DNA of 40,523 bases from Nitrospirales bacterium (GTDB taxonomy: Bacteria > Nitrospirota > Nitrospiria > Nitrospirales > UBA8639). Both the position numbers and the translations under genes were made by a program. The DNA is taken from positions 1 to 40,523 of the forward strand of contig JAJDZI010000056.1 in the NCBI GenBank assembly GCA_022824735.1, read 5' to 3'. Below the pieces are notes generated by a model that saw only the letters and a list, made by a program, of their open reading frames with translations, did not search any database and had not been told where the DNA came from. This document shows positions 3,367 to 24,923 of the stretch, piece by piece. How positions within the stretch are numbered: the stretch's first letter is position 1; each line of letters opens with the position of its first letter.

Positions 3367-3636
3367 ATGACCAAAACAAAACAGATGCAAATTCGCCTGG
3401 AGCCGGAATTGAAAACTAAGGCCGAAGCCGTGCTCTCTCAGCTTGGACTGAAACCCACGGAGTATATCCGCATGGCGCTACGGCAACTGGTTATGCACAA
3501 CGGGTTGCCGTTTGACGCCCGCATCCCCAATGCTGAAACCATCGCAGCCCTGGAAGAACCCACGAACACTCTAAGGCGGTTTGGCTCTCCGGAGGAACTG
3601 TTCGCCGACCTTGAGGAGCGGAGTCACACCGAGTAG
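3367..3636 (+). CDS. RelB/DinJ-family antitoxin
   Basis: The 89-aa protein has an N-terminal ribbon-helix-helix-like segment (MQIRLEPELKTKAEAVLSQL, residues 7-26) followed by GLKPTEYIRMALRQLV. That pattern is typical of RelB/DinJ antitoxins, which bind operator DNA and neutralise a RelE/YafQ-type RNase. The acidic C-terminus (FADLEERSHTE) would wrap the toxin. The toxin gene starts 3 bases after its stop, as expected for a type II operon. It lies in a repeat-rich accessory region, which fits mobile or addictive behaviour. The family call is firm, but the specific DinJ assignment rests on the YafQ-like partner. Confidence 0.88.
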   Translation: MTKTKQMQIRLEPELKTKAEAVLSQLGLKPTEYIRMALRQLVMHNGLPFDARIPNAETIAALEEPTNTLRRFGSPEELFADLEERSHTE

Positions 3637-3638
3637 GG

Positions 3639-3905
3639 ATGCGAGAGATTTCCTATGCCAACCGTTTTCTCAAGGATTACAGGCAAATCAAAAACCGGGG
3701 CTGGAATATTCAAAAGCTAGAGGCGTTTATCGGAGCGCTGGCCAGTGGTCAGCCGTTGCCGCCGAGCGCCAGACCGCACAAGCTGTCTGGGAAGTATGCA
3801 CGCGCTTGGGATGCCCATGTCGGTCCTGACTGGATTCTGATCTACGAAATCAGTGACGAGCATCTGATACTGCGCCGGACGGGAACACATGCAGATCTTT
3901 TTTGA
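3639..3905 (+). CDS. YafQ-family mRNA interferase toxin
   Basis: The 88-aa protein matches YafQ, a RelE-superfamily endoribonuclease that cuts mRNA on the ribosome. The residues known to matter in YafQ are all present: H47 (PHKLSG), H60 and D64-W65 in DAHVGPDWILIY, H84 in RTGTHADLF, and the terminal F88. It is therefore likely catalytically intact. The gene begins 3 bases after the antitoxin stop. A DUF1640-like mini-ORF follows immediately, so all three may be co-transcribed. Confidence 0.92.
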   Translation: MREISYANRFLKDYRQIKNRGWNIQKLEAFIGALASGQPLPPSARPHKLSGKYARAWDAHVGPDWILIYEISDEHLILRRTGTHADLF

Positions 3906-12101: not shown

Positions 12102-13190
12102 ATGCTGCATCGACTGGCACTCCGGGTGATTCCCCAACTGAACGCGATCGTGACGGAACCCGGCGTTCGCCGGCGCAAGCGCTGGGTGATGCTCGCTCCG
12201 GGGTTTGTGGCGTTTGTCCTCTATCGTCTCTTGAAAGACGTGCTGCCCTTATCCGACCCGCTGGCGTTGTTGGCGTTCAGCGGCGTCCTTTCGACGCTCA
12301 CCGCGTATTGGGCCTATGCGATGGGACGCGGGGAGCCGTTGCTCCGGATTTGCCGGACCGATCACCCACGTCGTCTTTTCTGGATCGGCGGATGGATCGG
12401 GTTCGTCTACGGCGTGCAACTTTCGTTGCTGGTGCTGGCGATCCTGGCGCTCTTTGTCGATTACAATTTCCTGGTTCATCCCGAAGGTCCGGCCATGATG
12501 GCCCTCATCATCCCCTGTACGTCGGTCACTCGTGACGCCTTTGAAATCGGGCACGTGGTTCGGATGGAAGCCCAAGGCGCAAGGCTGGTGACCTTTCCCG
12601 ACGGCGGATCGCTTCGTGAATTGCTTCAACGCGACTGGCTTCATGCGGCCCCATGGGTGGTTACGGGAATCGTCGCCGGCGGGGGCACCGCGGTCCTGTC
12701 CCGGCTCGGCTGGGCCGTCAACGGGGGGGAAGCCGGTCCGGCAATTCTGGTCTGTATCGTGGCGGCATTTTGCGCCCATGGAGCTTTCTTATCCGGGAAA
12801 CGTCCTCTCGACAACTTCCCTGATCGTTTCAGAATAGAGTCGTGGTTGGAAGCCTGCCGGTTTTGGGCGTGGCCGTGTTTGACTTTTGCATTCACATACT
12901 ATTTAGTGCAGTTCGGCCTCATCGCCTTTGTGTTGCGGGTTGAGGACGCGGCCCTTTTCGTTCACCTGGCGGTTGGCGGGGTCACCGCGGGGATGATGGC
13001 CGGGTACGGCTATTTCCTGGGGGCCCGGGTGTTTGTGGAGGCGCAAACGCAAGGCGGTATCTCCGAAGGCTTGAAACGGTGTCCGTTCGTGATGGAAATT
13101 TTAGCCAAAACCGGGTGGGTGACATCGGAACGGAAGGGAGCGCCCGTCGAGATCAGTCAGGGGGAACCTTCACGAGAGATGCTTTCATGA
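12102..13190 (+). CDS. polytopic membrane protein of unknown function
   Basis: The 362-aa protein has roughly seven to eight hydrophobic segments, grouped as residues 30-75, 92-140 and 185-320, separated by a cytoplasmic-looking loop (DAFEIGHVVRMEAQG, residues 149-163). I do not recognise the family. Its stop overlaps the start of the oxidase by 4 bp (ATGA), so the two are almost certainly translated together. A role as partner, assembly factor or extra membrane subunit of oxidase copy 1 is the simplest reading. The predicted ribosome site is weak, and the hairpin repeat at 12006-12081 lies just upstream. Confidence 0.65.
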   Translation: MLHRLALRVIPQLNAIVTEPGVRRRKRWVMLAPGFVAFVLYRLLKDVLPLSDPLALLAFSGVLSTLTAYWAYAMGRGEPLLRICRTDHPRRLFWIGGWIGFVYGVQLSLLVLAILALFVDYNFLVHPEGPAMMALIIPCTSVTRDAFEIGHVVRMEAQGARLVTFPDGGSLRELLQRDWLHAAPWVVTGIVAGGGTAVLSRLGWAVNGGEAGPAILVCIVAAFCAHGAFLSGKRPLDNFPDRFRIESWLEACRFWAWPCLTFAFTYYLVQFGLIAFVLRVEDAALFVHLAVGGVTAGMMAGYGYFLGARVFVEAQTQGGISEGLKRCPFVMEILAKTGWVTSERKGAPVEISQGEPSREMLS

Positions 13191-15037
13191 AAACCGGCCT
13201 GCCTGTTTTCCTGTTGTGCGTGCTGGGTGTTGTGCTTGCCGCGCCGGTGGCGGGGTGGGCCGGTCAGGATGCTGCCGCCCTGACCGAGGACGTCTATTAC
13301 AAGACCGACGGAATCCCTCAAAGCCCTCCGGCCACGGAAACCGGATCCACCTACCCGCAATGGCAACCGCTCAATAACCGGATCATCATCTGGCTCGTCA
13401 CGCAGCAGCATACCTATTTCGGCGGGTTCGTCCTGGCCCTGCCGTTGTTTGCGTTTCTCCTGGAATTATTGGGCCTGACGCGCCGTGATCCACAGGCAGC
13501 CCAACGGTACGACGGCCTGGGCCGCGACATTCTTCGCGTCGGGGTGGTTTCGCTTTCGGTGACGGCCCTGCTCGGCAGCCTGATGCTTGGGGCGTTCATC
13601 ACGTTCTATCCCGTGTTCATGACGTACATGGGGTCCACGTTCAAACAGATGATGCCGTTGTACGCCGCGGTGTTTTTGGGGGAATCCTTCCTCCTGGTGT
13701 TGTACTACTACAGTTGGGACCGCCTGGCCCAAGGCGCGGGGAAATGGGTGCATTTGTCGATCGGGGTCGTGGCGAACGGCATGGGCGTGATGTTGCTCCT
13801 GCTGGCCAATGCCTGGGCGTCGTTCATGATGGCGCCCGCGGGCGTGAACGCCGAAGGCCAATTTCTGGGGAACGTCTGGCATTTGTTGCATTCGCCGTTA
13901 TGGAATCCGCTGAACGCCCACCGGTTCCTGGCGGATATCATGTCCGGCGGGGCCGTTGTCGTGGCCTATGCCGCGTACCGGTTTTTGAAGACTCACGTCC
14001 GGGAGGAGCGGGCCTATTACGATTGGGTGGGGTACGTGTTCATCGTCGTGGTGGTGTGCGCGTTGCTTCCCATGCCCTTTGCCGGATACTGGCTGATGCG
14101 TTCCGTGTTCGAATTCCGTCAGGAGATGGGGATGACCATGATGGGCGGATTGTTGTCCTGGCTGTTCGTGGTCCAGGCCACCACCATCGGCGCGTTGTTT
14201 CTCGGCATCAATTATTACATCTGGCAGTCTCTGGGACGGTTGCGTGACGGGGAACGGTATCATCCTTATTTCAAATTTATTCTCGGCGGGCTGATGATGT
14301 CGTTCCTGGTCTGGTTCACCCCCCATACCATTGCCATGACGCCGAGCGAAATGAAAGCCATGGGCGCGGCGCAACATCCGGTGATCGGACAGTTTGGGGT
14401 GATGTCGGCGAAAAACGGCGCCATCAACGTCATGATCTGCCTGACCGCCTTGAGCTACCTGCTGTATCGTCGCGCCAATCGCATCATGACCGTGCCGTGG
14501 GCCGCGGCGGGAAACGCGGCGATCGGGGCGTTGTTTGCCGTGGGTATCGCCAATATCGTCTGGGTCTCGGTGTACGGGTTTTTCATTCCCGCTCACGTTC
14601 GGGTCGGCCTCTCCATTCCGCAGGGGGCCACCACGGCGACGGTCCTGATCGGGGGGTTGGTGCTCAATCATTTTCTGTTGAAGGGGAGCGAGATTCGGGG
14701 TCCCATCCAATGGGGCGGGATATCCGTGCGCGGGATGGTGGCGTTGTTCGGGGTCGCCGCGACCTTTTCCTGGGTCATGGGGTTGATGGGGTATATCCGG
14801 TCGGCCGGCCGGTTGGGATGGCACGTCAATGAGCTGATGGCCGACGTTTCCCCTTGGGCGTTTACTCCTGCCATCACGTTTGCGGCCAAAATGGTGACCA
14901 TCAACATGGTGTTGTTCTGGGCTTCGGTGTTTTTCATGTTTTGGCTGGCCACCCGGGACAAACGGCCGGCCGTCGTGGAAAAGGACGAACCGGGCATGTC
15001 GTTCGCGCAGGCGTTCTCCCGGGAGGAATCGGTATGA
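13187..15037 (+). CDS. cytochrome bd-like oxidase, divergent copy 1
   Basis: The start ATG at 13187 overlaps the upstream stop. The 616-aa protein has a signal-peptide-like N-terminus, the motif EDVYYKTDG (34-42), then about 13-14 TM helices. The N-terminal half resembles the CydA family of bd quinol oxidases, with H75 in TQQHTYFGGF, E166, H189, H232/H235 and H245 as candidate haem or proton-path residues. The C-terminal half is unlike CydB and has H380 (FTPHTIAMTP), H397 and H546. Such long bd-like oxidases have been reported in Nitrospira as the probable terminal oxidase. Compared with copy 2 at 18701, the core is colinear with a constant 40-residue offset. Three histidines of copy 2 are replaced here: P157, I454 and P561. 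It may have lost a metal centre or changed substrate. DUF420, DUF3047 and FGE-fold genes surround it. Confidence 0.85.
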   Translation: MKTGLPVFLLCVLGVVLAAPVAGWAGQDAAALTEDVYYKTDGIPQSPPATETGSTYPQWQPLNNRIIIWLVTQQHTYFGGFVLALPLFAFLLELLGLTRRDPQAAQRYDGLGRDILRVGVVSLSVTALLGSLMLGAFITFYPVFMTYMGSTFKQMMPLYAAVFLGESFLLVLYYYSWDRLAQGAGKWVHLSIGVVANGMGVMLLLLANAWASFMMAPAGVNAEGQFLGNVWHLLHSPLWNPLNAHRFLADIMSGGAVVVAYAAYRFLKTHVREERAYYDWVGYVFIVVVVCALLPMPFAGYWLMRSVFEFRQEMGMTMMGGLLSWLFVVQATTIGALFLGINYYIWQSLGRLRDGERYHPYFKFILGGLMMSFLVWFTPHTIAMTPSEMKAMGAAQHPVIGQFGVMSAKNGAINVMICLTALSYLLYRRANRIMTVPWAAAGNAAIGALFAVGIANIVWVSVYGFFIPAHVRVGLSIPQGATTATVLIGGLVLNHFLLKGSEIRGPIQWGGISVRGMVALFGVAATFSWVMGLMGYIRSAGRLGWHVNELMADVSPWAFTPAITFAAKMVTINMVLFWASVFFMFWLATRDKRPAVVEKDEPGMSFAQAFSREESV

Positions 15038-16104: not shown

Positions 16105-17028
16105 ATGGAAAATCGCGGGGTGCTGATCGGGTCCATCATCTTTGTGTTTGCTTCGTTCATCCTGATGATGGTGATGCTGATCTATGAAACGTATAAGGGG
16201 CAGCAGGAATTGGACCGGCTGGTATCGAAGTCGCAGACGACCAAGCCCCGGGTCATCGCTCCGGTGAAAGTCCAGGATTTTTCCATGTATCGGACGATGG
16301 TCGGCAATGAAGGCCGTGAGATGGTCGAGATTCCCGAAGGCCCCTTTACCATGGGCAATGATCAGGGCGATCCCGATGAAGCGCCGGCTCATCCGGTGTA
16401 CGTGCGGACGTATTTCATCGATTTGAAGGAAGTCACCCAATCGGAATACGCGCGTTTCGTCAAGATGACCAAGCGGGAGCAGCCCCAGGTGCCGGTTTTT
16501 GAAGAAGACATTGCGAAACTCGTTGACCCGGACTTTCCCGTCGTGGGGATCGGCTGGAACGATGCCTTCGGGTATTGCCGGTGGGCCGGGAAACGATTGC
16601 CGACCGAAGCCGAATGGGAGAAAGCCGCTCGCGGCGAAGGGCGGCGGCTCTACCCCTGGGGGAATGAGTTCAGCTACATGGTTTCCAATATTGACGGGGA
16701 AGAGGACGGGTTTCAATATCTGTCGCCGGTCGGGTCTTTTGAGGGCGGGCGGAGTCCGTATGGGGTTTACGATATGACGGGCAACGTGGCGGAATGGGTG
16801 GCGGATACGTATGATGTCCAATATTATCAGAATTCGCCGTTTCGCGACCCTCCCGGTCCGGACAGTACGGAATTCAAGGTCATTCGCGGCGGGACCTGGC
16901 GCGATTCCAAACTCAACGCGAGATTGACCAAACGGTTTTCGGCCAAAATGTGGCGAACCGACGCGACAATCGGCTTCCGGTGCGCCCAGGACGTCGAGAC
17001 CGCCGAGACTGTCGAACAGGCACCCTGA
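16105..17028 (+). CDS. membrane-anchored FGE-sulfatase-fold protein 1 lacking catalytic Cys
   Basis: The 307-aa protein has an N-terminal TM anchor (VLIGSIIFVFASFILMMVML, residues 5-24), a linker, and an FGE-sulfatase (SUMF1) domain from about residue 70. Family landmarks are present: MVEIPEGPFTMGNDQGDPDE, the GKRLPTEAEWEKAARG motif, LYPWGNEF, SPYGVYDMTGNVAEWVADTY and the closing IGFRCAQ. The RGGTWRDSKLNARLTKRF segment, where true formylglycine-generating enzymes carry a Cys pair, has none, so sulfatase activation is unlikely. Non-catalytic FGE folds serve as binding or scaffold proteins. Its place beside bd-like oxidase copy 1 suggests a periplasmic structural or assembly subunit. Confidence 0.83.
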   Translation: MENRGVLIGSIIFVFASFILMMVMLIYETYKGQQELDRLVSKSQTTKPRVIAPVKVQDFSMYRTMVGNEGREMVEIPEGPFTMGNDQGDPDEAPAHPVYVRTYFIDLKEVTQSEYARFVKMTKREQPQVPVFEEDIAKLVDPDFPVVGIGWNDAFGYCRWAGKRLPTEAEWEKAARGEGRRLYPWGNEFSYMVSNIDGEEDGFQYLSPVGSFEGGRSPYGVYDMTGNVAEWVADTYDVQYYQNSPFRDPPGPDSTEFKVIRGGTWRDSKLNARLTKRFSAKMWRTDATIGFRCAQDVETAETVEQAP

Positions 17029-17064: not shown

Positions 17065-17979
17065 ATGGACGGAAGACTGAAACTGATCCTGCTTGCCGTG
17101 ATCTTATTCATGGTGGGCATGCCGGTATCGGGCATTCTGCGCGGGACCAAGGCTCCGCCGCCTGACCCCGAACTTGCAGAGGTCGTCGAACCCCTTGGGG
17201 AGACCGGCGATTCCCTGTCCGATCCCTCCCGGCCGATCCTCCCCGAAGACATGGTGTTCATCCCTCCCGGACAGTTCGTCCAGGGGACCAGCCAGGGCGG
17301 GTTCAATGAACGTCCCGAACGTGTCGTGACCCTTGACGGATTCTGGATCGATCGCTATGAGGTCACGAACCACCATTATCTCCGGTTTGTGGAACAGACC
17401 GGACACCGCAAACCCGGTCCTCCTTCCCGCTATGCCAGACGGTTGGCCCAATTGCGCGGGCCCAACCAGCCGGTGGCTTACGTCTCCTGGCATGATGCCG
17501 ATGCGTATTGCCAATGGAGGGGAAAACGCCTACCCGGGGAAGCGGAATGGGAAAAGGCCATGCGGGGGATTGACGGCCGGTTATGGCCCTGGGGGAATTC
17601 TCCGCGAATCCACAAAGCCAACCTGGGCGGGGTGGAGGACGGCTATGAAGCGACGGCGTCGGTTGGTTCGTTCCCATTGGACCGAAGTCCGTATGGTGTG
17701 TACGACGGCTTTGGCAACCTCATGGAATGGACCCATAATTGGTATGAAGAGCAAGTTCGGCATCCCAATGAGCCCGAACCCGAAGAGGCGAATTTTGCCG
17801 ATCGCGGAGGGTATAAGACCCTGCGCGGCGCCGGATATACCAGTTACGGCAACGATTTGCGGATTACAGCCCGGAGTTTCATGGTTCCCGACTTTCGCGA
17901 CGAAACCATAGGCTTCCGCTGCGTGGCGTCAGAGCAAAAACCGTCGGCCCACACGCTTCTCGGAAGTAGCGAAGGCTAA
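17065..17979 (+). CDS. membrane-anchored FGE-sulfatase-fold protein 2 lacking catalytic Cys
   Basis: This is a 304-aa paralogue of the preceding gene, 36 bases downstream. It has an N-terminal TM segment (LKLILLAVILFMVGMPVSGI), a Pro-rich linker, then MVFIPPGQFVQGTSQGGFNE, the GKRLPGEAEWEKAMRG motif, SPYGVYDGFGNLMEWTHNWY and a closing ETIGFRCVASEQ. The segment LRGAGYTSYGNDLRITARSF again lacks the cysteines needed for formylglycine formation. Two adjacent, diverged copies suggest a heterodimer or two distinct docking subunits on the periplasmic side. It is the last gene before a 120-bp hairpin element. Confidence 0.83.
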   Translation: MDGRLKLILLAVILFMVGMPVSGILRGTKAPPPDPELAEVVEPLGETGDSLSDPSRPILPEDMVFIPPGQFVQGTSQGGFNERPERVVTLDGFWIDRYEVTNHHYLRFVEQTGHRKPGPPSRYARRLAQLRGPNQPVAYVSWHDADAYCQWRGKRLPGEAEWEKAMRGIDGRLWPWGNSPRIHKANLGGVEDGYEATASVGSFPLDRSPYGVYDGFGNLMEWTHNWYEEQVRHPNEPEPEEANFADRGGYKTLRGAGYTSYGNDLRITARSFMVPDFRDETIGFRCVASEQKPSAHTLLGSSEG

Positions 17980-17991
17980 AGGAGCCTCTGA

Positions 17992-18111
17992 TTTACTGTG
18001 ATAGCGGGATGCAGGGCAAGGCGTCCCGGAGCGAAACCCGAAGCTTATCATCGAGATAGGTGAGGGTTGAGCGAGGACACAACGCAGCCCTGCGCCCGAT
18101 AGTGCAGTAAA
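17992..18111. repeat. 120-bp imperfect inverted-repeat element
   Basis: The left arm begins TTTACTGTGATAGCGGGATG and the right arm, reverse complemented, begins TTTACTGCACTATCGGGCGC. Both then continue into CAGGGC. The whole element can fold on itself. It lies at the boundary between the copy 1 and copy 2 oxidase regions and is followed by a fragment of the MITE-like repeat (about 18115-18146). No ORF is inside. Confidence 0.6.
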
Positions 18112-18148
18112 CATGTCCTCGACGTTCTTAATCGGGGATCAGAGGTTC

Positions 18149-18253
18149 CTAGAGGAAGTCGAAGTAGTAGAGGATCAGAAAGACGGCCAAAAGAATATTG
18201 ACAACCATTCCGGCCAACACTATAATGTCGAACAATTTTGCGTTATTGCGCAT
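18149..18253 (-). CDS. 34-aa single-TM mini-protein (minus strand)
   Basis: The reverse strand from ATG 18253 to TAG 18149 encodes a short charged start (MRNNAKLFD), one long hydrophobic helix (IIVLAGMVVNILLAVFLILY) and the end YFDFL. The codons are unbiased and the preceding ribosome site is weak (GGTAAG). The clean one-helix layout with charged flanks is nevertheless what a small membrane subunit looks like. It is divergent from the two mini-ORFs at 18357 and 18499. Confidence 0.45.
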   Translation of the reverse strand: MRNNAKLFDIIVLAGMVVNILLAVFLILYYFDFL

Positions 18254-18294
18254 TGTCTTACCGTATCCGCGAACAGTGGTTGTTGAGTACCACA

Positions 18295-18322
18295 TCTTGA
18301 AGAAATGTGTCAAGAGTATAAT
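18295..18322 (+). promoter_or_regulatory. candidate promoter with inverted repeat for the oxidase copy 2 operon
   Basis: A perfect -10 TATAAT (18317-18322) is preceded directly by the inverted repeat TCTTGA-N9-TCAAGA (18295-18300, 18310-18315). No well-spaced -35 is visible, so an activator bound at the repeat is conceivable. It lies 35 bases upstream of the first mini-ORF of this operon. Confidence 0.4.
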
Positions 18323-18356
18323 TTATTAAGGTCAAACATCTAGAAGGAAGATCAAG

Positions 18357-18470
18357 ATGGCAAAAAGTGATCCGCTTCCGATCAAGCTGGGCAAGGCGAT
18401 TTTCTATGTGACCTGCGCCGTGAGCTTGTGGTTCTTTTATTGGTTTGCCGGCATACAATGCCCTTGTTGA
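18357..18470 (+). CDS. 37-aa single-TM mini-protein upstream of bd-like oxidase
   Basis: The ATG at 18357 follows AGAAGGAAG with suitable spacing. The product starts MAKSDPLPIKLGKAIFYVTC, continues with an aromatic helix AVSLWFFYWFAGIQ and ends CPC. One TM helix with positive residues at the start predicts N-in topology. Known bd oxidases use tiny single-helix subunits (CydX/CydH type), and this ORF has the right size, position and topology, although no sequence match to CydX is apparent. It lies 28 bases upstream of the next mini-ORF. Confidence 0.62.
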   Translation: MAKSDPLPIKLGKAIFYVTCAVSLWFFYWFAGIQCPC

Positions 18471-18498
18471 AGAAGGGAACTGAAGGGGAGGAGTTTCT

Positions 18499-18615
18499 AT
18501 GCAAACCGTTCTGTACCTCATCATCTCGATCGTGATCTCCGTGGCATATTTTCAGTTCATCGACTGGGCTCTGATGGATATGCAGGGGTTGGACTATTTC
18601 TACATTCTGAGGTAA
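18499..18615 (+). CDS. 38-aa single-TM mini-protein upstream of bd-like oxidase
   Basis: The ATG at 18499 is preceded by GGGGAGGAG, a strong ribosome site with 6-base spacing. The product is MQTVLYLIISIVISVAYFQF followed by IDWALMDMQGLDYFYILR: one TM helix and a short amphipathic, aromatic C-terminus. It ends 85 bases before oxidase copy 2 and is on the same strand. The strong ribosome site and location make it a likely real small subunit or assembly factor of the oxidase. Confidence 0.65.
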   Translation: MQTVLYLIISIVISVAYFQFIDWALMDMQGLDYFYILR

Positions 18616-18700
18616 GCACTAATCAGTCGTCATTCTGAAAAACGCAACTATAAAGGCTTATTGTTCTTTGAGTAATTTCAAAGAAAGAAGGAGGTTGGTC

Positions 18701-20665
18701 ATGGGTCGCCTCACGAGTGGACGGGCCGGGAAGAAATTTCTGGCAGTCACCGGTCTTTTTGCAATGGGAGCCATGTTGTTGCTCCCGATTTTTGTGGCAC
18801 TGCCGGCGTTGGCCGGCGGGGGTGCTCCCGCAGCAGGCGGGCCGCCTCCGGACGTCGTAGCCGCCCAGGAAGCCGAAGGCGCCGAAGGCGAAGAAGCCAA
18901 GGTCGAAATCGGCAGGGACGTCTACTACAAAACGGAAGGTCCGGTCGTTGGCGCGCCGGCTCCCAAGACTCAAGATACGGCAGAATTTTATCCCCGGTAC
19001 AACTTCGAAAGCCGGGTTCTTCTTTGGGTCGCCAACCAACAGCACCTGTACTATGGCAGCTTTGTGCTGGCCGTCCCGATTTTCTGTATGTGTATCGAGT
19101 TTGCCGGGTTGGTGAGTAAAGACAAGGAGATGGCGAAGAAGTATGACCAATTGGCTTATGACTTCATCAAAATCAGCCTGACCGCGTACTCGCTGACGGC
19201 CATCCTCGGTGGTATTCTCATCTTCACCTTCCTGACGTTGTATCCCGCCTTCTTTGGTTATCTTTCCAGTATTTTCCGTCCCGTGATGCATATCTATGCG
19301 TTGATGTTTGTGGCGGAAAGCGGAACCCTCTACATCTATTACTACGGGTGGGACAAGATGAAAGAGGGGATGTTGAAATGGCTGCACGCCAGCATGTCCG
19401 TCGTGCTGAACGTGATCGGGACGGTGTTGATGTTCCTGGCCAATTCCTGGATCGGTTTCATGATGTCGCCAGCCGGCGTCGATGAGCAGGGCCGGTATCT
19501 TGGTAATATCTGGCACGTGCTGCATACGGCGCTCTGGAATCCATTGAACGTGCACCGGATTCTCGGGAATATGGCTTTCGGCGGCGGCGTGGTGGCGGCC
19601 TATGCCGCTTACCGGTTCCTGTCGGCGAAGAATGATGAGGAGCGCGCGCATTACGATTGGATGGGGTATATCGCCATGGCCCTCGGGGTTGCCTTCCTGA
19701 TTCCCCTCCCGTTTGCCGGCTATTGGCTCATGCGCGAGGTGTATGCCTATCGTCAACAAATGGGTATTACCTTGATGGGCGGGTTGCTGGCCTGGTTGTT
19801 CATCATTCAGGCTACCATGATCGGCATCCTGTTCCTGACGACGAACTACTACCTCTGGCAGGCGCTCGGACGAATGACTGGAGGTGAGCGGTTCCAACGC
19901 TATATCAAGTACTTCGTGTTTATTCTGGTCGTGGGTCTCCTGGTCTTTATTACCCCGCATACCATCGTCATGACGCCGGCTGAGTTAAAGGCCATGGGCG
20001 GTCAGCAGCATCCGGTACTGGGGAACTATGGCGTGATGTCGGCTAAAAACGGCGGCATTAACGCGATCATCATGACCACGATCGCCAGTTTCATATGGTA
20101 TCAACGCGGTAACAGGGTGCCCGCGGTAAAATGGGCGAAGTTCGGGAATATCTTCCTGATCACGTTCTTTGTGGTGGCCCATCTGAACAATATCTGGGTG
20201 GCCTGTTACGGGTACTTCATCCCTGCGAACGTGCGAATCGGTCTCTCGGTTCCACAGGTCGCCGGTACATTGTCCTGCCTGTTTATCGGTTCGGCCTTGA
20301 ACCTGGCCATGTTGAAGCAGTCCAGGGAACTTGGGCCGATCCGGTGGGGTCAGATTGCGCCGCGTTCACAGTATGCCCTGATTATGCTGGCAACGGCCTT
20401 TACATGGATGATGGGACTGATGGGGTATATCCGGTCGTCCGTGCGGTTGTTCTGGCACGTCAATGAGATTATGCGTGACAATTCGCCATGGGCGTACACG
20501 CATACCATTGGTTTTGGGGCCAACGTGATCTCCTTTAACGTGTTGTTCTTCTGGATCACGATCATGTTCGTCTTTTGGCTTGGGGCACTGGGAGCCAAGA
20601 AAGCGCCCGTGCCTGCGACGCAGCCCGTTCCGGGTACCGCGCCGCAACCTGCAACTGGTCATTAA
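18701..20665 (+). CDS. cytochrome bd-like oxidase, copy 2 (probable main terminal oxidase)
   Basis: The ATG at 18701 follows GAAGGAGG. The 654-aa protein has an N-terminal signal/TM segment, an Ala/Gly/Pro-rich periplasmic stretch, GRDVYYKTEG (71-80), then about 13-14 TM helices. Conserved candidates shared with copy 1 are H115 (NQQHLYYGSF), E206, H229, H272/H275, H285, H420 (ITPHTIVMTP), H437 and H586 (FWHVNE). Histidines unique to this copy are H197, H494 and H601, which may complete a metal site. The N-half is CydA-like; the C-half is not CydB-like. In Nitrospira such proteins are proposed to reduce O2. Two mini-ORFs upstream and cytochrome c genes downstream suggest a complex that takes electrons from cytochrome c, not only from quinol; this is inference. 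Confidence 0.88.
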   Translation: MGRLTSGRAGKKFLAVTGLFAMGAMLLLPIFVALPALAGGGAPAAGGPPPDVVAAQEAEGAEGEEAKVEIGRDVYYKTEGPVVGAPAPKTQDTAEFYPRYNFESRVLLWVANQQHLYYGSFVLAVPIFCMCIEFAGLVSKDKEMAKKYDQLAYDFIKISLTAYSLTAILGGILIFTFLTLYPAFFGYLSSIFRPVMHIYALMFVAESGTLYIYYYGWDKMKEGMLKWLHASMSVVLNVIGTVLMFLANSWIGFMMSPAGVDEQGRYLGNIWHVLHTALWNPLNVHRILGNMAFGGGVVAAYAAYRFLSAKNDEERAHYDWMGYIAMALGVAFLIPLPFAGYWLMREVYAYRQQMGITLMGGLLAWLFIIQATMIGILFLTTNYYLWQALGRMTGGERFQRYIKYFVFILVVGLLVFITPHTIVMTPAELKAMGGQQHPVLGNYGVMSAKNGGINAIIMTTIASFIWYQRGNRVPAVKWAKFGNIFLITFFVVAHLNNIWVACYGYFIPANVRIGLSVPQVAGTLSCLFIGSALNLAMLKQSRELGPIRWGQIAPRSQYALIMLATAFTWMMGLMGYIRSSVRLFWHVNEIMRDNSPWAYTHTIGFGANVISFNVLFFWITIMFVFWLGALGAKKAPVPATQPVPGTAPQPATGH

Positions 20666-20732: not shown

Positions 20733-20747
20733 TTGTGGAGGGGCAAA

Positions 20748-22067
20748 GTGGTTGAATTACTTACGGAAGCAATTTCGATTGGATGGCCGGCATTCGCCTT
20801 TTTGATAGGGCTGCTCTTTTATTTTCAAGCCAAAGCGACTGATCCCGCTCAAAAAAAGAATGTCACGTTCAAGACGTTTATCGGCATGTTGTGCGCACTC
20901 ATGGCTTTTATTGCCATTGCGAATTACAAGAATAATTTCTATGGAGAAAGCCGCTTGCTGCCTGTCTCTTTGGTGATGATTACGTTCCTGGCCTATATCA
21001 TGGGCATCTATTTCACCAATATCGGGGCACTCATGAAAATCGGCGGCTTTATGTTTTTCGTGGCTGCGGCCTTGTCCGGGTATGGTAATTGGTTGCCCCA
21101 GGTGGAAGGGGGATTCCCGCCGCCGGAAGTCAAGCTGGACTTCCAGAGCATGACGTCCCAGCAGTTGGGTGACGAGGGCGAAAAGATTATCTTCGGCGGT
21201 CTTGGCCAGAGTAAAGTTCAGGGCGCAATCGGGAAAGGCCAGTGTCCTCTCTGTCACGGTTTCAACCAGGGCTTCCTGAGTGAACGGGCCCCGAATTTGT
21301 GGGACGTTCCTGCTCGAGCCGAAGAACGGTTGAAACACGAAAAATATCATATGAACGATCCGGGTTCGCGTGACACCGTGCAAAAGGAAGCGTTTGAGGG
21401 TTCCGGGACGGCGACGACCGGCCAGGAGTATATCGCCGAGTCTCATGCTTGCCCCAGTTGTTTTGTCGTCCCCGGATTCGGCGTGAAAGGAACGAATGAC
21501 ACGGAAAGCCCGATGCCGAGAATCCATAAGCCACCCATTTCTCTGACTATTGGCGAGTTGGCGGCCGTGGATACGTGGCTGTACGTTCGGGAAGGGAAAG
21601 AAGCGCCGACGTACGAGGAAATTCAATCGTCGTATGAAAAATTCATTCCCGAAGCTGACCGGCCCCAGGCGAGTGCCGAAGGGGATGAAGGCGCCGCCGG
21701 CGGTGTGCTGGCCACTGGTGAAGAGCCGATTACGGACCTCTTCATGAAAGCCGGATGTCCGGCCTGTCATACGATTCCAGGGATTGAAGGGGCAACCGGA
21801 AAAGTCGGTCCCCTCTTGATGGAAGGCAGTAATGCTCCCAAGCGGTTGAAGGATCCGGGGTATGCGGGTCATGCCACGTCGGCTCGTGAATACATTACCG
21901 AGTCGATTTTGAATCCGAGCATGTATGTGGTGAAGGATTTCCCGGATAACCAGATGCCGAAAGATTTCGGACTGAAACTCAGCGCGGGAGCCGTTAATAA
22001 AATCGTGGATTACCTGTCCAGCTTGAAGGAAGGACAGGATTTGCCATCATTGGAAGATTTTAATTAA
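20748..22067 (+). CDS. membrane protein with two cytochrome c domains
   Basis: The GTG at 20748 has GGAGGGG 4 bases upstream. The in-frame TTG at 20733 would sit inside the hairpin and is rejected. The 439-aa product begins with four TM helices (roughly residues 10-28, 42-60, 70-90, 94-112), then a periplasmic part with two c-type domains. Haem sites are CPLCH (166-170) and CPACH (337-341), with probable Met ligands at M256 (SPMPRIH) and M403 (NQMPKDF). A third cysteine pair, C235-P-S-C238-F, lacks the histidine; in the second domain the aligned stretch is NPSMY, so this is an added Cys pair and not a lost haem. The gene lies 82 bases after oxidase copy 2 and probably supplies electrons to it. 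Confidence 0.85.
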   Translation: MVELLTEAISIGWPAFAFLIGLLFYFQAKATDPAQKKNVTFKTFIGMLCALMAFIAIANYKNNFYGESRLLPVSLVMITFLAYIMGIYFTNIGALMKIGGFMFFVAAALSGYGNWLPQVEGGFPPPEVKLDFQSMTSQQLGDEGEKIIFGGLGQSKVQGAIGKGQCPLCHGFNQGFLSERAPNLWDVPARAEERLKHEKYHMNDPGSRDTVQKEAFEGSGTATTGQEYIAESHACPSCFVVPGFGVKGTNDTESPMPRIHKPPISLTIGELAAVDTWLYVREGKEAPTYEEIQSSYEKFIPEADRPQASAEGDEGAAGGVLATGEEPITDLFMKAGCPACHTIPGIEGATGKVGPLLMEGSNAPKRLKDPGYAGHATSAREYITESILNPSMYVVKDFPDNQMPKDFGLKLSAGAVNKIVDYLSSLKEGQDLPSLEDFN

Positions 22068-22107: not shown

Positions 22108-23073
22108 ATGACCTGGTTAAAGTTAGTCGAAGGCTACATGCCGATGCAGATGATTTCGGAGTTGGCCTGTTCGATTCTGGTGTTTGCGCTGATCAACTGG
22201 TCGCTGAATCGGGCGGGCATGGGCATTCCCAAGTTCTGGGCGGGGGTAGGCGTGTGGATCTACATCCAGCTCTATTTGAAATACCGCATTTATCCGCCGA
22301 TCCCCTTCAGTGTGCGAGCGATTTACGGGACGGTGTCCGCCTGTGGCATTTTCATGTGGGTGTCCGGGTCGGAAGACGCGTGGCAGGAATTCAAGCGGCC
22401 GGTGATCAACGTGATGGATGGCATCAGCGGGTTTCACAAGAGTATGCGCACCGTGGCGTTGATTGTCATTCCGCTGGCGTTGGGCGGCTTTGCCTATAAC
22501 TCGTTCCTGCCCAGTTTTGAAGAACCCATCGAGTTGCGGACCGTGCATCCGGCGCCGCCGGCCACGACGAAAGTGCACGGGAAGACCTTTGTGCTGCAAG
22601 TGGTCGAGAACCCCTATCGAGTGAACAACGAGGGGAAGTACGATCAGGCGTACACGGACGCGCGGATCGTGGAGCAGGCCATGGGGCGGTTGATGAAGGA
22701 CGTGAATGACCCGAATTACAACCCGTGGGATCCCAATGCCGAAGGCTATACCAAGTACGTGCGGGAAGGGGGCGAGATCTTCTTTCAGAACTGCCACTTC
22801 TGTCACGGGGACAACCTGAACGGGCGGGGCTTATGGGCGTACGCCTTCAACCCGATTCCGGCGAACTTCACGGATGCGGGTACGATTGCCCAGTTGCAGG
22901 AGACGTTCGTGTTCTGGCGGGTCTCGAAAGGCGGGATCGGCCTGCCTGGTGAAGGGTTCCCATGGGCCTCGGTGATGCCGCCCTGGGAGCAACACCTGAC
23001 GGTGGATGAAATCTGGAAAGTGGTCATGTTCGAATATTGGCACACGGGCTACTATCCCCGGACCTGGGATTAA
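22108..23073 (+). CDS. membrane-bound monohaem cytochrome c
   Basis: The ATG at 22108 follows ACAGGAG. The 321-aa protein has four hydrophobic helices in its first 130 residues (SELACSILVFALINWSL, FWAGVGVWIYIQLYL, AIYGTVSACGIFMWVSG, VALIVIPLALGGFAY). A periplasmic domain follows, with one haem motif CHFCH (229-233), NLNGRGLW, and a likely axial M290 in ASVMPPWEQHLTVDEIW. The layout parallels the preceding gene, with an N-terminal four-helix part then haem c, suggesting they form a complex together with the dihaem EB_dh protein 23 bases downstream. The function as an electron-transfer subunit is inferred from the haem site and operon. Confidence 0.85.
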   Translation: MTWLKLVEGYMPMQMISELACSILVFALINWSLNRAGMGIPKFWAGVGVWIYIQLYLKYRIYPPIPFSVRAIYGTVSACGIFMWVSGSEDAWQEFKRPVINVMDGISGFHKSMRTVALIVIPLALGGFAYNSFLPSFEEPIELRTVHPAPPATTKVHGKTFVLQVVENPYRVNNEGKYDQAYTDARIVEQAMGRLMKDVNDPNYNPWDPNAEGYTKYVREGGEIFFQNCHFCHGDNLNGRGLWAYAFNPIPANFTDAGTIAQLQETFVFWRVSKGGIGLPGEGFPWASVMPPWEQHLTVDEIWKVVMFEYWHTGYYPRTWD

Positions 23074-23096
23074 GCGGAGAGGAGCGGAGACGAGCC

Positions 23097-24923
23097 ATGA
23101 GCAAGAGCAGATATGGAAGTCACTTGGCCCGGTGGGGCGTGTGCTTGAGCGTGAGTGTGCTGCTGGGGTTGGGGCTGCCCCTGAGCAGTGGCGCACAGGA
23201 AGACCTGCCGGAAGGGTTTAAACAGCAGGGCCTGCCGTCGCCCCCGCCTGCGGAGCAGATCGAGGCAGGCAAGCGAGTCTATTTTACCAAATGTGTGTGG
23301 TGTCACGGCGTGGAAGGGGCCGGGGACGGGCCTGGCGCAGTGCGGTTGTGGCCCCGACCGCGGAACTTCAACGCGGGCACCTTCAAGATCCGGCACACGG
23401 CCAGCGGGCAGTTGCCCCTGATTGACGTGGACCTGCTCCAAACGGTCACGCACGGCCTGCCGGGGTCGGCCATGCCGTCGTGGGAAGGCATTCTCACCGA
23501 ACAACAGCGCAAGGACGTGCTGGCTTTCGTGACCACCCAACTGGTCCAGGATCGGTCGTGGCAGGACGAAGAATTTGAAGAACTCTTTGTGTTGCAGTTG
23601 GATCAACTCGCCCCGAAACAGAACACCCCGGAGTCTATCAAACGGGGTTCTGAATTGGTGGTGGAAAAGAAATGCATCGAATGTCACGGCCTGGAAGGCC
23701 GGGGCGACGGGAACGCGTTCAACCTCAAGGATGACTGGGGCTTTTCCATCCAGCCGGCGGACTGGCACAAATGCTGGAACTTCCGGGGCAGTCGTCAGGA
23801 TCCGTACAATGTCCGGAACATCTTCCGGACCTTCTCCACGGGGTTGAACGGGACGCCGATGCCCTCGTTTGCGGACAATACCAGCGTGGACGAGCGGTGG
23901 GACATTGCCAACTACGTCAACTCGCTGTGTGAGCGGGCCAATGAGATTCCCGCGCCGCAAGGGCAGGTGAGCGATGAAACGGCGCAGGTCTTCTCCACGG
24001 CGGCGCCCTTGCCGATCGACCCGCTGACGGACAAACCGAAGAGTAACTTCGTGATTCCGTCAAAATTCGTGGAAGGGGATCTCCCGACGGATGAAAACGA
24101 CGAGCGGTGGAAACTGATCCCCCGGCGGTGGTTGGCCATGGGCGGACAGATCACGCACAAACCCCGTAATTTCGTGAACCGCATTGACGACATGTGGGTA
24201 CAGGCACTGTATAACGAAACGCATATCGAATTCATGTTCCGCTGGGATGACCGGACCAAGAGCATTCAGGAAGATGAAGTCGACTGGGATCCCACGGAAG
24301 TGAACCTGGGTGACTATGGCGTTGAGGAACAGGCCCCGCAGGGCACGACGTTTGCCGAAGATCCGTTCCATCAGGAATCGATTGCGGCCAAGCAAAAAGA
24401 CGGCTATTCCGTGTATAACGACGGCGTGGCGTTCCAATTCCCTGTCAAGTGGCAGGAACTGCCGGCCCCGCGGAAACCGCGCTACTTCTGGGGCGATGAA
24501 ACGTTCTCGGTGGACCTGACCAAATGGACGGCAGACGGGACCTTGGGCGTGTATGAAGGAACCGGCTGGGACCAGGACCTCACCGAGTTGGACTTCCAGG
24601 AAGAAGTGGAAGTGGTGAAAGCGGAGTGGGCGAATGGCCGCTGGACGGTGATTGTGAAGCGCCCCTTGAAAGGTGACTACGAAGAAGTGGCGTACCTGGA
24701 GGCTGGCAAATACATCCCGATGGTGTTTTTTGCCTGGGACGGGCACAACGGGGACGTGGGCCGGAAGATGGCCGTGTCGGCGTTCTATTATCTGGTGATG
24801 GAGCCGCCGATTCCGTTGACCACCTACGTGTATCCGGGGTTGATCACGGTCGGTATCGTGATTATCGAAGGCTGGGTGTTGGGCCGCCGCGCCAACCGGC
24901 GGAAGGAAAAAGGCCAGGCCTAA
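23097..24923 (+). CDS. dihaem cytochrome c-EB_dh fusion with C-terminal membrane anchor
   Basis: The start ATG at 23097 (GGAGAGGAGCGGAG upstream) gives a Sec signal peptide. Two cytochrome c domains follow, with CVWCH (66-70)/M126 and CIECH (193-197)/M255. From about residue 310 the sequence looks like the ethylbenzene-dehydrogenase-type haem b domain seen in gamma subunits of type II DMSO-reductase enzymes (MWVQALYNETHIEFMFRWDD, DGVAFQFPV, GTGWDQD, RWTVIVKRPL). A C-terminal TM helix (YPGLITVGIVIIEGWVLG) anchors it. Up to three haems could be held on one polypeptide. It could be an NxrC-like haem relay between nitrite oxidoreductase and the oxidase complex. It is the last gene of the copy 2 operon. 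Confidence 0.83.
   Translation: MSKSRYGSHLARWGVCLSVSVLLGLGLPLSSGAQEDLPEGFKQQGLPSPPPAEQIEAGKRVYFTKCVWCHGVEGAGDGPGAVRLWPRPRNFNAGTFKIRHTASGQLPLIDVDLLQTVTHGLPGSAMPSWEGILTEQQRKDVLAFVTTQLVQDRSWQDEEFEELFVLQLDQLAPKQNTPESIKRGSELVVEKKCIECHGLEGRGDGNAFNLKDDWGFSIQPADWHKCWNFRGSRQDPYNVRNIFRTFSTGLNGTPMPSFADNTSVDERWDIANYVNSLCERANEIPAPQGQVSDETAQVFSTAAPLPIDPLTDKPKSNFVIPSKFVEGDLPTDENDERWKLIPRRWLAMGGQITHKPRNFVNRIDDMWVQALYNETHIEFMFRWDDRTKSIQEDEVDWDPTEVNLGDYGVEEQAPQGTTFAEDPFHQESIAAKQKDGYSVYNDGVAFQFPVKWQELPAPRKPRYFWGDETFSVDLTKWTADGTLGVYEGTGWDQDLTELDFQEEVEVVKAEWANGRWTVIVKRPLKGDYEEVAYLEAGKYIPMVFFAWDGHNGDVGRKMAVSAFYYLVMEPPIPLTTYVYPGLITVGIVIIEGWVLGRRANRRKEKGQA

Follow-up and report, generated by a model that had tools for sequence, protein, structure and literature searches.

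The small open reading frames (ORFs) p34, p37 and p38, which lie upstream of a cytochrome bd-like oxidase gene on a 40,523-nucleotide contig from a Nitrospirales bacterium (JAJDZI010000056.1, the whole of which is referred to here as the window), are real genes under strong purifying selection. Comparison of their sequences and gene context indicates that their products are probably new single-helix accessory subunits of a cytochrome c-linked complex of the bd family. An initial annotation of the window had proposed three ORFs of 34, 37 and 38 codons in the interval 18149-18615, each with a single transmembrane helix and with p34 divergent from the other two, and all three were confirmed there (coordinates include the stop codon):

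18149..18253, minus strand: p34, 34 amino acids (aa) from an ATG, single helix, MRNNAKLFDIIVLAGMVVNILLAVFLILYYFDFL
18357..18470, plus strand: p37, 37 aa, single helix, C-terminal end Cys-Pro-Cys, MAKSDPLPIKLGKAIFYVTCAVSLWFFYWFAGIQCPC
18499..18615, plus strand: p38, 38 aa, single helix, conserved Q-(G/N)-L motif past the helix, MQTVLYLIISIVISVAYFQFIDWALMDMQGLDYFYILR

One helix is predicted for each protein, the best 19-residue hydropathy values being 3.06 for p34, 1.69 for p37 and 2.19 for p38. The good ribosome-binding sites claimed for the two plus-strand ORFs are present (AGAAGGAAG for p37 and GGGGAGG for p38), and that of p34 is weak in the source genome. When the three peptides were searched with tblastn against 79 relatives, matches were obtained in 72 for p38, 77 for p37 (a few of them weak) and 71 for p34, with no internal stops and nearly always as a single copy per genome. 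The initial annotation had proposed this comparison as a check, and the peptides were indeed kept at the same position without loss to stops or frameshifts; start codon, length, frame and stop are retained in about 60 aligned loci, the exceptions being loci at contig ends and a few irregular ones. The ratio of nonsynonymous to synonymous changes per site (pN/pS) within the genus is 0.022 for p34, 0.075 for the core of p37 and 0.108 for p38, and the corresponding order-wide values are 0.18, 0.15 and 0.24. Substitutions in the three genes are concentrated on third positions, and p34 is 85-100% identical inside the family. It is the recurrence of tblastn matches far above chance, together with low pN/pS, that identifies the ORFs as genes. 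One could suppose that they are leader peptides or conserved non-coding DNA whose translation is irrelevant, given that the intergenic DNA is conserved and that p34 overlaps a conserved promoter (see below). This has next to no probability, however, since third positions diverge while amino acids are kept, and the p34 protein is retained both in family f4, which lacks the promoter, and where p34 is located elsewhere.

Conservation, selection and a fixed gene order lend strong support to the earlier suggestion of genuine small membrane proteins linked to the bd-like oxidase. The genes that accompany the trio in the window are as follows:

17065..17979, plus strand: membrane-anchored FGE/SUMF1-like protein, a constant upstream neighbour
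18701..20665, plus strand: bd-like oxidase (OR-N-like), 654 aa, Pfam Cyt_bd_oxida_I (PF01654) at E 1.2e-19, above the cut-off
20733..22067, plus strand: cytA, membrane-anchored cytochrome c, same cluster as the oxidase
22108..23073, plus strand: cytB, cytochrome c, same cluster as the oxidase
23037..24923, plus strand: alt-NxrC (altC), two cytochrome c domains and an ethylbenzene-dehydrogenase-type heme b domain; translation may in fact begin further downstream

For the oxidase the most likely start codon is the ATG at 18701, which has a GGAGG site and lies 85 bp past p38, rather than the TTG at 18668. The p37 and p38 genes directly precede the oxidase, as had been stated. By domain and fold the oxidase is a homologue of subunit I of the cytochrome bd superfamily. 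Its AlphaFold model has a mean predicted local distance difference test score (pLDDT) of 76.7, and the nine best Foldseek matches to this model (E <= 0.001) are all bd subunit I (CydA/AppC chains) at probability 1.00, with overall TM-scores that are modest (0.34-0.41 by query). Residues H115, E206 and H285 are invariant across 35 sequences. The OR-N-like label comes solely from the literature context (PMC12342949, PMC10839748). There is no cydB within the oxidase cluster, and the heme b domain of alt-NxrC is of the type II dimethyl sulfoxide (DMSO) reductase kind.

In the aligned loci of the order Nitrospirales the gene order is fixed as FGE-like, p34 (opposite strand), p37, p38, oxidase, cytA, cytB and altC, and the trio is likewise found with the orthologue of this cluster in further families of the class. 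Profile searches of 296 genomes sampled from the phylum gave matches in 115 for p38 (order profile) and 130 for p34 (wide profile). The p34 matches in 122 of these genomes have E <= 3.4e-14, and this strong set consists of 103 of the 106 genomes of the order, all 17 other Nitrospiria and 2 genomes from another class. The set of genomes matched by a cytA profile is nearly identical, and every Nitrospiria genome with an intact locus has strong p34 and strong cytA together, the exceptions being contig ends (G073, G257) or the absence of both (G018, G231). Weak p34-like matches in G133, G206 and a second contig of G113 have no adjoining oxidase and were taken as chance. Outside the class the cluster occurs in only three of the sampled genomes, all with the small ORFs; besides the two in the strong p34 set, these include G101, which carries all three. 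In G101, G105 and G113, the genes for p34, p37, p38 and the oxidase are contiguous and on one strand, which is a good indication that p34, though divergent here, is part of the oxidase unit. The trio is thus co-inherited with the Nitrospirota form of the complex only.

Alternatively, the three proteins could serve another system that adjoins the oxidase, such as the FGE-like proteins or nitrite oxidoreductase (NXR). An FGE-like gene is likewise a constant neighbour, and in several families of the class p34 lies beside another FGE-like gene and away from p37. In G101, G105 and G113, however, the stretches examined have the trio ahead of the oxidase and contain no FGE-like match, and the trio persists in class members that have no NxrB-like gene, which makes this alternative highly improbable. 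The occurrence of the complex in relatives lacking an NxrB-like gene argues against a role solely as an NXR anchor. Families f1 and f3 have NxrB-like genes (about 175 bits), whereas searches of f4 and the class-level trio carriers gave no such gene, only matches of at most 83 bits; one f2 genome also had no NxrB-like match, possibly through incompleteness of the metagenome-assembled genome. The link to nitrite oxidisers drawn in the initial annotation did not hold, as nitrite-oxidising anammox bacteria that have the cluster lack the trio, and the idea that the trio occurs only in nitrite oxidisers was rejected because of its carriers without an NxrB-like gene. The trio thus tracks the Nitrospirota form of the complex rather than nitrite oxidation.

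The anammox bacteria Kuenenia, Brocadia and Scalindua have the oxidase (41-46% identity) in the order oxidase-cytA-cytB-altC. No trio was found in them, either by the p34 profile over whole genomes or by hidden Markov model profiles of all three proteins over six frames of ten cluster loci. The oxidase of Kuenenia and Brocadia (L236/L237) has a 65-aa hydrophobic insertion past the equivalent of residue 491 of the window's oxidase, which might replace a helix. In Scalindua and Anammoxibacter (L232-L235) the bd-like oxidase is fused in frame to a cytA-type cytochrome in a protein of 843-880 aa, a fusion that supports direct contact between the oxidase and cytochrome c. Trio ORFs are also absent from the other bd-like oxidases of the source genome, of which one lies in the window (13079-15037) and contig C31 carries two.

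The proposed complex would consist of the bd-like oxidase, the two cytochromes c, the heme b/heme c protein and p34, p37 and p38. The small proteins probably pack on the 654-aa bd-like subunit in the way that CydX and CydH/CydY bind CydA, and they would be needed to assemble it, to retain its heme or to bring it into contact with the cytochromes; both the physical association and the structural role are what we infer. Two points weigh against a subunit role. Conserved linkage alone would fit a dedicated assembly factor as well as a subunit, and the trio is dispensable for some versions of the complex, because anammox bacteria keep oxidase-cytA-cytB-altC without it. It is therefore conceivable that the three proteins are dedicated assembly or insertion factors, which would insert heme or join the oxidase to the cytochromes and be absent from the finished complex. 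The existence of the anammox core cluster without the trio would fit such a role, as would the placement of three small genes ahead of the large subunit. Permanent helix-helix contact is nevertheless a better fit for bare helices that have almost no soluble part and are very highly conserved, and CydX, CydS and CydH, which are small bd proteins already known, are all subunits (PMC8951039). We consider assembly factors unlikely, and accessory subunits remain the preferred explanation.

Lysine and arginine residues average 2.1 ahead of the helix in p34 and 2.9 in p37, with none past the helix in either, so that the positive-inside rule predicts cytoplasmic N-termini for both and a periplasmic C-terminus for p37. 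The bias is reversed in p38 (0.26 ahead of the helix and 1.23 past it), which by the same rule suggests the opposite topology. The terminus of p37 is CPC in families f1-f3 and His-His in f4, and it has His at or near the end in most other families. Based on these termini, the C-terminus of p37 could possibly provide a metal or heme ligand; the ends in f6 and f11, which are neither CPC nor His, count against this idea. A doubtful extension would be that the trio forms a three-helix module which converts a lone bd-like subunit to a cytochrome c-linked complex, with the periplasmic end of p37 ligating a metal or heme close to where electrons enter and the p34 gene coupling subunit and enzyme through the operon promoter. 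An extra p37 homologue of 52 aa ending in QCPC is present on another contig of genome G058 (L134 4014-4172), distant from p34, p38 and the oxidase; the sequence downstream of it may include a fragment of a cytochrome c.

The p34 gene contains a predicted promoter on the opposite strand, and a second candidate lies between p34 and p37:

18198..18226, plus strand: sigma-70-type promoter TTGACA-17-TATAAT, a perfect match in a promoter scan, antisense within p34 and facing p37-p38-oxidase
18286..18313, minus strand: possible p34 promoter TTGACA-16-GGTACT (GATACT in most relatives), picked out by eye from the intergenic alignment

The first promoter overlaps p34 codons 10-11 and 17-19 in antisense. 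Among 59 genomes from families f1, f2 and f3, it matches the consensus at 12 of 12 positions in 58; it is lost in the three f4 genomes, which retain the p34 protein. Four of the codons that it overlaps are degenerate (ATT, ATA, GTT and GTC), and across the 59 genomes none of them has a synonymous variant. By contrast, each of the other 18 degenerate p34 codons with a conserved amino acid varies. If codons are assumed to be exchangeable, the chance that these four would rank lowest is 1 in 7315. Because the promoter is intact in nearly all of these genomes and the overlapped codons are frozen, p34 probably doubles as the promoter of the oxidase operon in the three families. Transcription is predicted to start near 18233, about 124 nt ahead of p37. 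The intergenic DNA between p34 and p37 holds a second conserved element, GTGTCAAG...TATAAT, which may contain p34's own promoter. If both promoters are used, with the p34 transcript expected to start near 18279, the two transcripts would share about 45 nt in a head-to-head overlap.

About 170 bp downstream of p34, in 17980-18150, are bracketed by imperfect inverted repeats that are nested (AGGAGCCTCTGAT/ATCAGAGGTTCCT and TTTACTGTGATAGCGGG/CCCGATAGTGCAGTAAA) and resemble a small mobile element or a terminator. Two membrane-anchored FGE/SUMF1-like (PF03781) proteins adjoin the cluster (16105-17028 and 17065-17979), and one of the two genes stays its neighbour class-wide. FGE enzymes bind copper. 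Elsewhere in the window are a RelB/DinJ-type antitoxin (3367-3636) and a RelE/YafQ-type toxin (3639-3905), above the NCBIfam subfamily cut-offs (TIGR02384, TIGR02385).

Nitrospira perform much of global nitrite oxidation. If the three proteins are subunits, purification and structural models of the complex must add three small chains, and a class-wide trio marker would cleanly separate the complex from its paralogues. The promoter within p34 would be a clear case of a coding gene constrained by a promoter on the opposite strand.

The cluster corresponds by gene content, rather than by direct sequence comparison, to bd-like_3/alt_NxrC_2 of N. moscoviensis, which is described as highly transcribed and as conserved in Nitrospina and anammox bacteria (PMC6606698, PMC3578206). 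On the same basis it is probably equivalent to the TO_1 complex of 'Ca. Manganitrophaceae' members, which are without nitrification genes (PMC9040806). All share the same context, in which a bd-like oxidase is accompanied by an alternative NxrC and two cytochromes c, and the available portions of the literature on bd-like_3 and TO_1 do not mention small proteins. The anammox cluster has the same gene order and differs by having no small ORFs and by the 65-aa insertion (Kuenenia/Brocadia) or the fused cytochrome (Scalindua).

CydX is encoded after cydAB, the CydA being of the long Q-loop type. The bd superfamily is known to include small subunits of a single helix (PMC6853902, PMC8951039, PMC4325964), among which CydX aids assembly and stability and CydH/CydY blocks a gas channel (PMC6853902, PMC8951039). 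The parallel with CydX in the initial annotation stands for size and place, since the trio proteins, like CydX, CydS and AppX, have about 37 aa and one helix, are encoded with a bd-family oxidase and are proposed to pack on subunit I. It fails for motif and family model. The motif YxxWxxGx15E/D is found in 97% of CydX homologues (PMC4325964), but YxxWxxG is in 0 of 187 p34, p37 and p38 sequences, and no member of the trio sets (A1-A3) matches the CydX or DUF2474 Pfam models up to E 10. Moreover, the p37 and p38 genes precede the oxidase instead of following cydB, and there are three distinct proteins rather than one. CydH/CydY and CydZ are further single-helix bd proteins with gene positions unlike those of the trio: the gene for YnhF (CydH/CydY of E. 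coli bd-I) lies apart from the cyd operon (PMC6853902), and that for CydZ (DUF2474) comes after cydB (PMC4325964). Homology to CydX, CydY or CydZ was rejected on the lack of the motif and of Pfam or NCBIfam matches. Weak matches to PF14715, the N-terminal helix of cbb3 FixP/CcoP, occur in 4 of 15 p37 members (best E 0.0056) and not in p37 of the window. The description of the small proteins as new was upheld, in that searches found no Pfam or NCBIfam family that matches the trio, no credible relatives of the peptides in the PDB and no paper in the open-licence literature that describes them. The three proteins seem to form new families of an established type, the small helices of bd-family oxidases, in a new setting.
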